From the NCBI RefSeq assembly GCF_003385775.1, contig NZ_QRDP01000004.1, forward strand, positions 1,473,763 through 1,537,762: a stretch of DNA of 64,000 nucleotides, in the 5' to 3' direction. This DNA comes from Parasphingopyxis lamellibrachiae (GTDB lineage Bacteria > Pseudomonadota > Alphaproteobacteria > Sphingomonadales > Sphingomonadaceae). The stretch's first letter is position 1. Every line of letters begins with the position of its first letter. This document shows positions 12,991 through 16,724 of this stretch, piece after piece. The position numbers and the translations under genes are program-made. Below the pieces are notes generated by a model, which was not told where the DNA came from, ran no database searches, and saw nothing but the letters and a program-made list of their open reading frames with translations.

Positions 12991-13428
12991 TCAGCCCTTC
13001 CGGTCGAACCGGCGGCCGAGCGTTACCACGTCCTGCCGCGCCAGCCCAAGCGCCTCGTAAAAGGTGATCACATCCGCATTGTCGCTGCGCACCATCAGCT
13101 GGATCTTCGGCGCGCCGCGCGCACGCAACCAGGCTTCGGCCGCCGCCATCATCCGCTTGCCCAGCCCTTTTCGGCGATGATCGGGATGGACAGCGAGATA
13201 ATAGACCCAGCCGCGATGCCCGTCGAAACCAGTCATCACGGTTGCGATCAGGGTCGCGGCTTCGTGGAGGAGGAGAATGTCGGACGTGGAGTTTTCGACC
13301 GCCTGCCGGAAATCGGCCACCGGATCGTTCCACGGCCGCGTCAGACCGCTGGCGCGCCACAGGGCAATAACGGCATCCCGGTCGCTATCCTGCGCGGCGG
13401 CGATATCCGTCTCATCAATGGCCGTCAT
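12991..13428 (-). CDS. GNAT-family acetyltransferase (YpeA type)
   Basis: A 145-residue GCN5-related N-acetyltransferase. The acetyl-CoA-binding motif A is clear as VHPDHRRKGLGKRMMAAAE, and the C-terminal IQLMVRSDNADVITFYEALG motif is typical of YpeA-like enzymes. These acetylate amines of small molecules or proteins; the acceptor is unknown. Its start overlaps the end of the upstream endonuclease III-like gene by fourteen bases. Confidence 0.88.
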   Translation of the reverse strand: MTAIDETDIAAAQDSDRDAVIALWRASGLTRPWNDPVADFRQAVENSTSDILLLHEAATLIATVMTGFDGHRGWVYYLAVHPDHRRKGLGKRMMAAAEAWLRARGAPKIQLMVRSDNADVITFYEALGLARQDVVTLGRRFDRKG

Positions 13429-14128
13429 CCTCTACCCTCCCCGTCCGGCACTCTGGCCGCGCAGGCCATGCCGCGCAATGCCGCTCCTGCGGGCGGCAGA
13501 AGCGCTGGCCGACGCGCTTCACGAGCAGATGATGCTCGTCGACATGCTCGGGGGTCCACGTCTCGGGCAGGATCGGCATCAGCGTGTCATACGCCTTCGC
13601 GGTATCGGCCTTGGCCGGCACGAGCCCCATGCGCTGGATCACGCGGCGGTGGTTGGTGTCGATAACGAGCGCGGCGCGCTTGAACGTGCTCGCATTCATC
13701 ACACCGGCGCTCACCTTTCGCGCGACGCCCGGCAGACTTTCGAGCCAGTCCATCGCCTCTTCGGTGGGCAGATTGTGCAGATGATCGAGCGTGACCGCCC
13801 CGCGCCGCTCGACAATCTCCATGAGACACGCCTTGAGCCGCTCCGCCATCAGCTCGGGAAAGGTCGCGGTTTGAAGAAAGCGCAACAGCTCCGCCTCCGA
13901 CGCCGCCGCGACCGCCTCCCAGGAGCTGAAATGCGCCAGCAGCTGGTCGGCCGAGCGGTTCGAATGGATCGTCTTCGTCCGCGCCCCGATCACGCCCTGC
14001 ACCAGCACCCAGACCGGATCCCGGCGCTTCTCGGGTGGGCGGATCACCCGGCCGAAATGGGCGATCAACAGGTCATGCGTACGCTGGAGCGTTTCGGTGC
14101 GCGGGTCCGGGCCGAGGGGGAGTTGCAT
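13415..14128 (-). CDS. Endonuclease III-like HhH-GPD DNA glycosylase with altered Fe-S loop
   Basis: A 237-residue protein with the helix-hairpin-helix (LESLPGVARKVSAGVMN) and the VIDTNHRRV segment carrying the catalytic Asp of the HhH-GPD superfamily. It should excise oxidised or alkylated bases; the Lys after GVAR may give lyase activity. In Nth the C-terminal [4Fe-4S] loop is Cys-x6-Cys-x2-Cys-x5-Cys. Here the loop reads CRPQERHC then AAWPARPEC, so the third position is Trp (codon TGG) and only three ligands remain. The frame is intact around it. It may therefore bind an incomplete cluster or none. Confidence 0.82.
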   Translation of the reverse strand: MQLPLGPDPRTETLQRTHDLLIAHFGRVIRPPEKRRDPVWVLVQGVIGARTKTIHSNRSADQLLAHFSSWEAVAAASEAELLRFLQTATFPELMAERLKACLMEIVERRGAVTLDHLHNLPTEEAMDWLESLPGVARKVSAGVMNASTFKRAALVIDTNHRRVIQRMGLVPAKADTAKAYDTLMPILPETWTPEHVDEHHLLVKRVGQRFCRPQERHCAAWPARPECRTGRVEDDGH

Positions 14129-14150
14129 GGCTACTCGAAGTTAAATCTCG

Positions 14151-15104
14151 TTATTCATGTCGCGGCGGGCCGATAATGGACTCAAGACGTCGCGAAATAT
14201 CGTGGAACCTCGCTTCGACAGATTTTTCTGAGCAAACGAAAAACTCACCGCCGACGCTGCTAAACTCCTTCTTGAAAAGGGATTTCAGATCTGACTCTGC
14301 ATTGTCCGCATCATTAGAGGACTCAAATTTTCGCGATGATTGGATGACTCTCCAACGGCTGCCGCAAGCTGGCGGAAAACCTGAATTCAGCTCTTTGCAA
14401 CGGCGCTCAAGATGAGAAGTTCGGCCAACTTTATATAAGCCCTTGCCGACATACTCATGTGCGCGTCCGCCCATGAAAGAAGACAAATCTCCATCGAACT
14501 TCATCAGATAAAGAAAGCTACCCTTATCTTCGGTTTCGAATTCTCGCTTCCCAAAGCTTGGCTTCGGTCCTTTTGTTGGTTGCCAATGCTCTTCGAACGG
14601 TTGAAAACTTTGATTGCCTTCAGCCAACGGCGTCATCCCGTAAACTGAAAGTTGACGAGTTGGCCAGCTCATAACGTTTTTTGCTTCCCGTTCGGTCACT
14701 AAGACCCCGTAGGAACCAAGGACTCTGGCATTTTTATGAGTGTAAGTATCAGGAAATAAATCGGAAACACCGACCTTCTGCCGAAATTGCCATGCTCGGA
14801 CTACCGGCACGGCATACGTCCACCGATCTGTCCAACCATTCACTTCTTTGCGATGCTTCCCGGTCTCGGACATCCGGTCCACATCCTTTATCGGTTCTGG
14901 AACGATTTCCAGAATACCGAGAACCTGTCGACGTTCCTCTGCAGCGGTCAGCTCGCTATCCGCGCCATATATCAAAATAAGATCGCCGGGTTCGTAGTTC
15001 TCAAGCAGACGCGTACGACCGCCCTCGTTAGTGAAGCCGAGGTAACCTTCATTATCGGGATCAAATCCCCAAAAAGCTTTAAGCCAAAAACGAGGCTGGC
15101 TCAC
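14151..15104 (-). CDS. PUA/EVE-like domain fused to T5orf172/MUG113-type GIY-YIG nuclease domain
   Basis: A 317-residue two-domain protein. Residues 1-160 ([20 protein letters not shown], then [12 protein letters not shown] and later [20 protein letters not shown]) resemble a PUA-superfamily/EVE-type fold, a group known to read modified bases; this part is tentative. Residues 195-292 match the T5orf172/MUG113 branch of GIY-YIG nucleases: LYL (Tyr199), LYKVGRT (Tyr224), Arg234/235, NAES (Glu270) and GGEFFVC, so the catalytic set looks intact. The start GTG overlaps the guaA stop as GTGA. Base composition is visibly richer in A/T than all neighbours, suggesting transfer. A modified-DNA restriction role is inferred. 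No methylase or integrase is adjacent. Confidence 0.7.
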
Positions 15105-16669
15105 TCCCACTCAATCGTACCCGGCGGCTTCGACGTATAATCATACACCACCCGGTTGATGCCCTTCACCTCGTTGACGATCCGCGTCGCCACGCGGGTC
15201 AGGAAGCTCGCGTCGAAGGGATAGACGTCGGCGGTCATGCCGTCGGTCGAGGTCACGGCGCGCAGGCCGCACACATTATCGTAGGTCCGCCCGTCGCCCA
15301 TCACGCCGACGGTTTTCACCGGGAGCAGCACGGCAAAGGCCTGCCAGATCGCGTCGTAGAGCCCGGCGTTGCGGATTTCCTCGAGATAGATCGCATCGGC
15401 TTTGCGGAGAATGTCGCAGCGCTCCTTGGTCACCTCGCCCGGGATGCGGATCGCAAGGCCGGGGCCCGGGAACGGATGGCGGCCGACGAACGCGTCGGGC
15501 AGGCCGAGTTCGCGCCCGAGTTCGCGGACCTCATCCTTGAAGAGCTCGCGCAGCGGCTCGACCAGTTGCATGTTCATGCGTTCCGGAAGCCCGCCGACAT
15601 TGTGGTGCGATTTGATGGTCACGCTGGGGCCGCCCGTGAAACTGACGCTCTCGATCACGTCCGGATAAAGTGTACCCTGGGCCAAGAAATCCGCCCCGCC
15701 CACTTCCTTGGCCTCTTCCTCGAACACGTCGATAAAGGTCTTGCCGATAAATTTGCGCTTCAGCTCGGGGTCGGTGACCCCTGCCAGCCCGGAGAGGAAC
15801 ATCTCCTCCACATCGCGGTGGACGAGCGGCATGTGATAATGCCCCCGGAAAAGGGACACGACCTGATCGGCCTCGCCCTGCCGCATGAGGCCATGGTCGA
15901 CGAACACGCAGGTCAGCTGGTCGCCGATCGCTTCGTGGATCAGCACAGCGGCGACAGCGCTGTCGACGCCGCCCGATAACCCGCAAATAACCTTGCCGTC
16001 GCCTACCTGTTCGCGGATTTCGGCGATCTTGGCGGCCTTGAACTCCGCCATCGTCCAGTCGCCGGCACAGCCGCAGACATGGCGGACGAAATTGGCGATC
16101 ATCTTTGCGCCATCCGGTGTGTGCACGACCTCGGGATGGAACTGGGTGCCGTAATAGCGCCGGGCATCGTCTGCAATCAGCGCGAAAGGCGCGCCTTCGG
16201 TGGTTGCCACGATCCGGAAGCCTTCGGCAAACTGGGTCACCTTGTCGCCATGGCTCATCCAGACCTGGTGTCGCTCCCCGGTTTCCCAAAGCCCGTCGAA
16301 CAGCACGCAATCGTCGGAAATCTCGATAAAGGCGCGGCCGAATTCGCCGCTTTCGCCGGCTTCCACCTTCCCGCCAAGCTGTTCGGTCATGACCTGCTGG
16401 CCGTAGCAGATGCCGAGGATCGGCAGGCCGCTCTCAAAGATCACATCGGGCGCGCGCGGGCTATCCGCATCGGGCACGGATGCCGGGCTGCCGGACAGGA
16501 TAACGCCCTTGGGCTGCATGCGCGCAAAAGCTTCTTCGGCCGCGTTGAAGGGGGCGATTTCGGAGTAAACACCCGCTTCGCGCACGCGGCGTGCGATCAG
16601 CTGCGTCACCTGGCTGCCAAAGTCGACGATCAGGATCGATTCGCCGTGAAAAGAGGTCTGAATTGTCAT
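15101..16669 (-). CDS. guaA: GMP synthase (glutamine-hydrolysing)
   Basis: A 522-residue enzyme converting XMP to GMP. The class I glutaminase domain has GICYGQQ with nucleophile Cys88 and the catalytic HPE motif; the synthetase half begins with the PP-loop [13 protein letters not shown] and ends with the conserved PPGTIEWE terminus. The start at 16669 is chosen over 16720 because the family begins just before [11 protein letters not shown]. The intact 3' end, immediately followed by a foreign-looking gene, fits the known use of guaA 3' ends as island insertion sites. It is divergent from the chemoreceptor-like gene. Confidence 0.97.
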
Positions 16670-16724
16670 GACAGGGCAATAGATTTGCAGGCCGGGCCTG
16701 TCCAGCAATCGGGCGCGCACATGG

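Follow-up and report, generated by a model that had tools for sequence, protein, structure and literature searches.

In their section on type IV enzymes, Bell, Wolf and Koonin (2020; PMC7641849) describe fusions of EVE domains with GIY-YIG nucleases as numerous, and they also mention EVE proteins beside type I loci. VcaM4I and TspA15I (PMC7897488) combine an N-terminal EVE sensor and a C-terminal nuclease in one protein, and P24, W82, and Y130 are the pocket residues of VcaM4I. Two further groups contain a GIY-YIG nuclease: CMoRE (PD-T4-3; PMC12923530), a single-gene type IV enzyme acting against phages with modified cytosine, and the wH-GIY-YIG enzymes Ahi29725I and Apa233I (PMC11037411), which read Gm6ATC by a winged helix. 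Relatives of the gene described here were also detected in DnmA-YeeB-YeeC clusters. In B. subtilis, such a cluster did not protect against any of three phages, although deletions left Vibrio crassostreae more sensitive to certain phages (PMC9973331). The accessible part of a paper on restriction in Zymomonas (PMC8432527) contained no relevant gene. An EVE-GIY-YIG enzyme with measured activity was not found in the literature searched.

The window analyzed here, the whole stretch of DNA of 64,000 nucleotides, contains one gene for such a fusion, which is listed with its domains and neighbors in Table 1. It starts with a GTG codon at position 15104, and the sequence GTGA forms a 4-nt overlap with the stop codon of the upstream gene. 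A second in-frame GTG is located at 15110 and would yield a product of 319 aa. The upstream ORF is taken to be guaA, judged from its translation and from the first-pass annotation of this sequence, and the downstream ORF is presumably nth-like, likewise judged from the sequence. According to the ORF list, the fusion gene is the sole gene between these two in the window. A methyltransferase gene does not adjoin it, and it is present as a single copy in its genome. Genes in the window and in unannotated loci were called with a script of our own.

Table 1 Features of the EVE-GIY-YIG locus in the window
Feature	Position	Strand	Remarks
EVE/T5orf172 (GIY-YIG) fusion gene, 317 aa	14151..15104	(-)	intact frame
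N-terminal EVE/PUA-like domain, about residues 5-152	14649..15092	(-)	conserved G13, G63, W95, A104, W105
Linker, about residues 153-194	14523..14648	(-)	pLDDT <50 at 178-192
C-terminal T5orf172/MUG113-type GIY-YIG domain, residues 195-311	14172..14522	(-)	invariant Y199, K225, G227, R235, E270, E287
guaA (GMP synthase) ORF, presumed, upstream neighbor	15101..16720	(-)	ORF translation; last codons give the shared GTGA start/stop
nth-like (endonuclease III-like) ORF, presumed, downstream neighbor	13415..14128	(-)	far border of the variable guaA-nth spot

Both halves of the protein were recognized by Pfam models, EVE matching residues 28-119 (24.4 bits, gathering cut-off 23), T5orf172 residues 221-299 (30.2 bits, cut-off 20), and MUG113 residues 224-298 (24.6 bits, cut-off 22.3); the general GIY-YIG model reached 12.2, below its cut-off of 22.6. 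A PHROGs family called endonuclease was matched by residues 193-281 (E 1.3e-5). PADLOC-DB yielded no match to the protein and NCBIfam one, which was far below its cut-off, and sequence searches of the PDB returned weak matches to UPF0213 (E 0.0094) and UPF0310 (E 0.027), the rest being unrelated. When Pfam was applied to relatives at E 0.01, EVE was detected in only two and T5orf172 in only four of 19 (alignment A2 has 19 rows). The predicted fold of the N-terminal half matched PUA-like structures of the EVE/YTH/ASCH type; the matches listed include no winged helix, which leaves its absence unproven. The C-terminal half was folded alone, since N-terminal matches had filled the first Foldseek and VIA runs. 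It matched GIY-YIG structures of the Slx1, HIGLE, and UvrC type as well as viral proteins named T5orf172, the latter with a probability of 1.00. Foldseek E-values were modest, the best being 1.4e-3 and 0.16, and the VIA Z of 7.0 for the C-terminal half lies in a range where a mere common arrangement is possible. With a score above the gathering cut-off and a predicted PUA-like EVE fold, the protein can be assigned to EVE (PF01878), and the profile scores, the predicted GIY-YIG fold, and the conserved Tyr, Arg, and Glu residues place it among the T5orf172/MUG113 nucleases as well. The fusion of a PUA/EVE-like domain with GIY-YIG that the first-pass annotation had proposed at 14151-15104 is borne out by the Pfam scores, and the fold comparison suggested there for the N-terminal half led to a predicted PUA-like fold of the EVE/YTH type.

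YTH RNA-reader structures were among the best fold matches of the N-terminal half. They would fit an RNA-targeting counterpart, in which a YTH/EVE-like reader of modified RNA is joined to a nuclease, for example as an abortive-infection ribonuclease. However, the solved GIY-YIG structures matched by the C-terminal half, Slx1, UvrC, and HIGLE, are DNA nucleases, and the classified contexts of relatives are DNA restriction loci. A shared fold does not show the substrate. An RNA target is considered very improbable.

Conservation was followed in 25 aligned rows, one of them the window copy, and the tree is based on the same rows. The alignment is composed of 21 out of 30 profile matches (bit score >110) and four out of five named loci, L144 being the same as G063. 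The copy on Sinorhizobium plasmid M162 was excluded because, in the middle part, its frame differs from that of a near copy, G596 is absent because it was missed by the script gene calls, and eight weaker profile matches, several of them reader-only or nuclease-only, were not counted. The six residues given as invariant in Table 1 were found in the nuclease half of all 25 rows, and for this reason the active site looks intact as judged from sequence. In the EVE half, G63 is invariant, W105, A104, and G13 are each present in 24 rows, and W95 in 22. Tyrosine at position 224 was detected in two rows and arginine at position 234 in eight, the window being included in both counts. Among the nuclease residues named in the first-pass annotation, Tyr199, Glu270, and Arg235 are therefore confirmed, but Tyr224 and Arg234 are not, and Lys225 is conserved instead. 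Loss of the nuclease residues across homologs, which was mentioned there as contrary evidence, was not observed. The sequence around Y199 reads F-L-Y199-L-M, without a tyrosine two residues to either side. K225 is assumed to occupy the place of the YIG tyrosine, a placement taken from the T5orf172/MUG113 group and not from a superposition.

Base composition sets the fusion gene apart. Among 75 called genes of the window of at least 100 aa, in which the fusion gene was counted from the GTG at 15110, it has the lowest GC content (0.494, median 0.603) and also the lowest GC3 (0.475, next lowest 0.591, median 0.719), in agreement with the earlier remark that it is richer in A/T than its flanks. 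Matches were detected in none of nine other genomes of the genus, which were 66 to 100% complete and included some incomplete drafts, and in 18 of 397 genomes of the family sample (E 1e-6), the own genome and one-domain matches being counted; in four of these 18, G571, G472, G794, and G689, the match is confined to the nuclease half. Counted in the same way, the class sample contained ten matches in 385 genomes (E 1e-6) and the phylum sample seven in 398 (E 1e-10), all seven from the same class. With this distribution in genus and family, the gene is an accessory gene, and vertical conservation at the same place in all relatives, listed in the first-pass annotation as speaking against its proposal, does not apply. 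It is probably of foreign origin, acquired horizontally. Seven of 72,556 plasmid records also match; the hosts in six of them are recorded as alphaproteobacteria, and Ancylobacter, the seventh host, belongs to this class as well. No match was obtained in 50,697 phage records (tblastn at 1e-5), no homolog in viral contigs by two scans resting on two peptide patterns each, and no match in a first scan of genome contigs with the window protein as query.

The settings of the relatives are diverse. Two are located in type I restriction loci, one in a phage gene cluster, and eight in DnmA-YeeB-YeeC clusters, and in ten cases a dnmA-like or HsdM methyltransferase gene adjoins. In Brevundimonas, genes for HsdM, HsdS, an Abi_C protein, HsdR, and a YgjP-like peptidase are followed by the EVE-GIY-YIG gene with a 4-nt overlap; on a Thioclava plasmid the order is HsdM, HsdS, a small ORF, a peptidase annotated as M48, and EVE-GIY-YIG. 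In an Acetobacteraceae MAG (L140:114-4482), which was found by searching genome contigs and not phage or viral records, the gene is positioned 165 bp behind terminase and portal genes near the end of a 4.6-kb contig, which is a prophage or phage. The gene follows one annotated as restriction endonuclease on Sinorhizobium plasmid M162 and one annotated as AbiEii/AbiGii toxin on a Xanthobacter plasmid. For the other ten of the 25 tree rows, a clear defence neighbor is lacking or the neighbors are unclassified; Bradyrhizobium, with the gene behind a helicase-like gene, and Neorhizobium, with the gene near a resolvase gene, belong to these. In the tree, the eight cluster copies fall into a clade of 12 rows (100/98) alongside Limimaricola, G122, G302, and G422. 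The window copy is found in a clade of eight rows with lower support (91/96), together with Acetobacteraceae, Brevundimonas, Bradyrhizobium, Neorhizobium, Thioclava, G063, and G011. On Thioclava plasmid p6 (L009:2008-3570), an ORF of 178 aa that matches the reader half only is immediately followed by an ORF whose PLD-like match is below threshold, an arrangement that looks as if reader and nuclease had been split into two genes.

The eight clusters, all in genomes of the same family, contain the EVE-GIY-YIG gene inside an operon for an MmeI-like methyltransferase, an SF2 helicase, and a second T5orf172 protein. Domains were determined by Pfam on the members of G668 and in the other genomes by similarity. 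The operon corresponds to DnmA-YeeB-YeeC by its predicted domain content and gene order. PADLOC yielded no match to the cluster relative in L096. Since the eight relatives are codirectional parts of the clusters, and some of them overlap yeeB or dnmA by 4 nt, the protein could be an accessory subunit that needs a restriction complex, with the YeeB helicase or HsdR as partner, and the copy beside guaA would be an orphan remnant or inactive passenger. A search with the yeeB helicase, which matched 35 of 394 family genomes, gave no match in the genome of the window, so that a possible partner is missing there; an HsdMSR set with YgjP elsewhere in this genome could provide a partner of that kind. 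But EVE-GIY-YIG is known in the cluster of only eight of the 35 yeeB-bearing family genomes, keeping in mind that the samples of 397 and 394 genomes need not coincide. Moreover, dnmA directly abuts yeeB, with gaps of 9 to 45 bp, in ten of 30 loci examined (of 39 matches), and the wider gaps contain EVE-GIY-YIG, a RelB-YafQ pair, a Schlafen (AlbA_2)/HATPase protein, or ORFs without Pfam match (L096, L059, L097, L098, L099, L072, L101, and L102). EVE-GIY-YIG is therefore optional cargo of an internal slot and not a fixed subunit, and both solitary copies keep the catalytic residues fully. Dependence on a complex was regarded as unlikely. Two slot loci showed peculiarities. In G018 (L111:229-376), the dnmA 3' end (aa 867-916 of the G668 protein, 61-76% identical) is repeated between EVE-GIY-YIG and yeeB. 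The cargo thus has a dnmA end on either side, as would result from entry by recombination at this place. In G015 (L114), a piece like the N-terminal extension of a 395-aa operon form (aa 7-64, 47% identical) is located directly before yeeB, where neither the EVE nor the GIY-YIG part found a match.

The place behind guaA was compared in 19 fetched genomes, one of which was ended by the contig end, and in the window. Within the stretch compared, nth was found in 11 of these 20 genomes, at distances of 38 to 4184 bp from guaA. For 13 genomes the cargo was tabulated, in G009 and G007 up to a gnat gene, and most of these gaps contain unrelated ORFs; the contents of the guaA-nth stretch thus vary within the family. 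Some of the ORFs appear sulfotransferase-like and others kinase-like, both names being given by eye (window 13415-15104 compared with L040-L058). A second EVE-GIY-YIG gene behind guaA was found in G011, which belongs to another genus, 1 nt past the guaA stop codon. The two fusion proteins are 45% identical and sisters in the tree (91/99), and the guaA proteins are 83% identical. One ancestral insertion with many losses and transfer via shared guaA flanks both fit this placement. The coupling to guaA reported in the first-pass annotation is real as far as the overlap is concerned, but it is not peculiar to guaA, because 4-nt start/stop overlaps recur in at least six relatives whose upstream genes differ, and the gap between guaA and nth varies in the family. 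As guaA is a known integration site, a GIsul2-like integrative genomic island at guaA was also considered. It was ruled out, as a direct repeat of the guaA end was not detected in 13900-15300, and an integrase is absent between guaA and nth in the window and was not recognized by eye in the tabulated cargo of the 13 genomes.

Occupation of the same intergenic place on the 3' side of guaA in two genera by sister copies, together with the patchy occurrence and A/T richness of the gene, would also be expected for a selfish, free-standing endonuclease of the homing type. Its GIY-YIG domain would cut alleles without the gene, repair would copy the gene in, and the EVE-like domain would serve only as a DNA-binding clamp; T5orf172 figures prominently in a study of mobile phage nuclease genes (PMC10448857). 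The family, however, resides in unrelated places, DnmA-YeeB-YeeC clusters, type I loci, plasmids, and among phage genes. In Brevundimonas, Thioclava, Xanthobacter, Sinorhizobium, and the eight clusters the gene runs in the same direction as the defence gene upstream and in many cases overlaps it, which resembles operon cargo, G122, G063, and G302 being exceptions that are not codirectional with the upstream neighbor. In addition, the guaA-nth spot of relatives contains other cargo, non-nuclease as judged by eye, and the reader domain belongs to the modified-base class. Homing was rated as quite improbable.

As a check of self-compatibility, genes for C5-cytosine methyltransferases were counted. 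C5-methyltransferase genes are present in 13 of 18 EVE-GIY-YIG carriers and in 109 of 199 family genomes, the two samples overlapping; hence, carriers do not avoid these genes but have them at least as often. Plain 5mC is therefore unlikely as a universal target of EVE-GIY-YIG proteins. The genome of the window has no C5-methyltransferase gene, and the sister carrier G011 has one. Bases modified in phages only, for example 5hmC and its sugar derivatives, may be targets. About 1.25 Mb from the fusion gene, the own genome harbors a tyrosine integrase gene, two ORFs, and genes for HsdM, HsdS, HsdR, and a YgjP-like peptidase (L155:3474-15216, C1 about 2737473-2749215). Given this type I set, the host likely marks its DNA with N6-methyladenine, which the fusion enzyme would then have to tolerate. 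An ORF that looks TIR-like by eye is located nearby (L155:1046-2122).

Taken together, the gene product is probably a stand-alone, modification-dependent (type IV-like) DNA endonuclease acquired by horizontal transfer. This reading is preferred because a predicted reader and a predicted cutter are present in one chain, no methyltransferase gene adjoins, the active site is kept, and 11 relatives are found in restriction or phage company; its horizontal, type IV-like part rests on foreign base composition, patchy distribution, and relatives in restriction operons and a phage gene cluster. The EVE domain would flip a modified base out of incoming DNA and accommodate it in its pocket, so that the GIY-YIG domain is brought in to cleave nearby; E270 would hold a metal, and Y199 and K225 would participate in catalysis. 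Host DNA would be spared as it is without that base, and a partner protein would not be required. Transcription from the guaA promoter and start-stop coupling might provide steady expression. For base flipping and metal-dependent cutting, this scheme draws on VcaM4I (PMC7897488) and on other enzymes with GIY-YIG (PMC12923530, PMC11037411). The most likely role would be one-protein protection against phages with modified bases. The defence role put forward in the first-pass annotation thus gains partial support, from homologs in restriction loci and a phage gene cluster, and draws none from the C5-methyltransferase genes, which carriers do not avoid. A wider, rather doubtful idea is that EVE-T5orf172 is a portable second lock of alphaproteobacterial restriction, which plugs in between dnmA and yeeB or behind HsdMSR-YgjP, destroys phage DNA that escapes restriction by base modification, and also lives alone, as it does behind guaA, or among phage genes.

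With 317 residues, a stand-alone organization, and a seemingly intact site, the protein is a good candidate for the first EVE-GIY-YIG enzyme to be assayed. If it is true that modified DNA is cut, modified bases could be mapped with a new pair of reader and cutter. The family also draws attention to the internal slot of DnmA-YeeB-YeeC clusters, which may collect further defence genes. Neither the placement in these clusters nor the guaA-linked stand-alone form was found in open-licence literature, which is weak evidence of absence.

EVE-GIY-YIG proteins are a kind already known, so far mostly by prediction, and the window gene is a further member. It has in common with the fusions of Bell et al. 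(PMC7641849) the make-up of two domains and the predicted role, a specificity module for modified bases combined with a nuclease. In that paper the class is covered by one sentence and Fig. 7, the word T5orf172 does not appear in the main text, and the guaA-linked and DnmA-YeeB-YeeC placements were not met in the passages on the class. Compared with DnmA-YeeB-YeeC (PMC9973331), relatives of the gene occupy the cargo position that separates the dnmA-like from the yeeB-like gene in the eight family genomes, but the window gene itself lies outside such a cluster. The window protein shares GIY-YIG with CMoRE (PMC12923530); there, however, the nuclease comes first and a sensor of distinct fold last, the reverse of the order seen here, and a GIYxY-YIG motif is present that the window protein does not have. 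As in the wH-GIY-YIG enzymes (PMC11037411), an N-terminal reader of modification is joined to GIY-YIG, but the predicted reader is a PUA-like EVE domain instead of a winged helix. The arrangement of sensor and nuclease is that of VcaM4I and TspA15I (PMC7897488), with GIY-YIG in place of the HNH nuclease of these enzymes.
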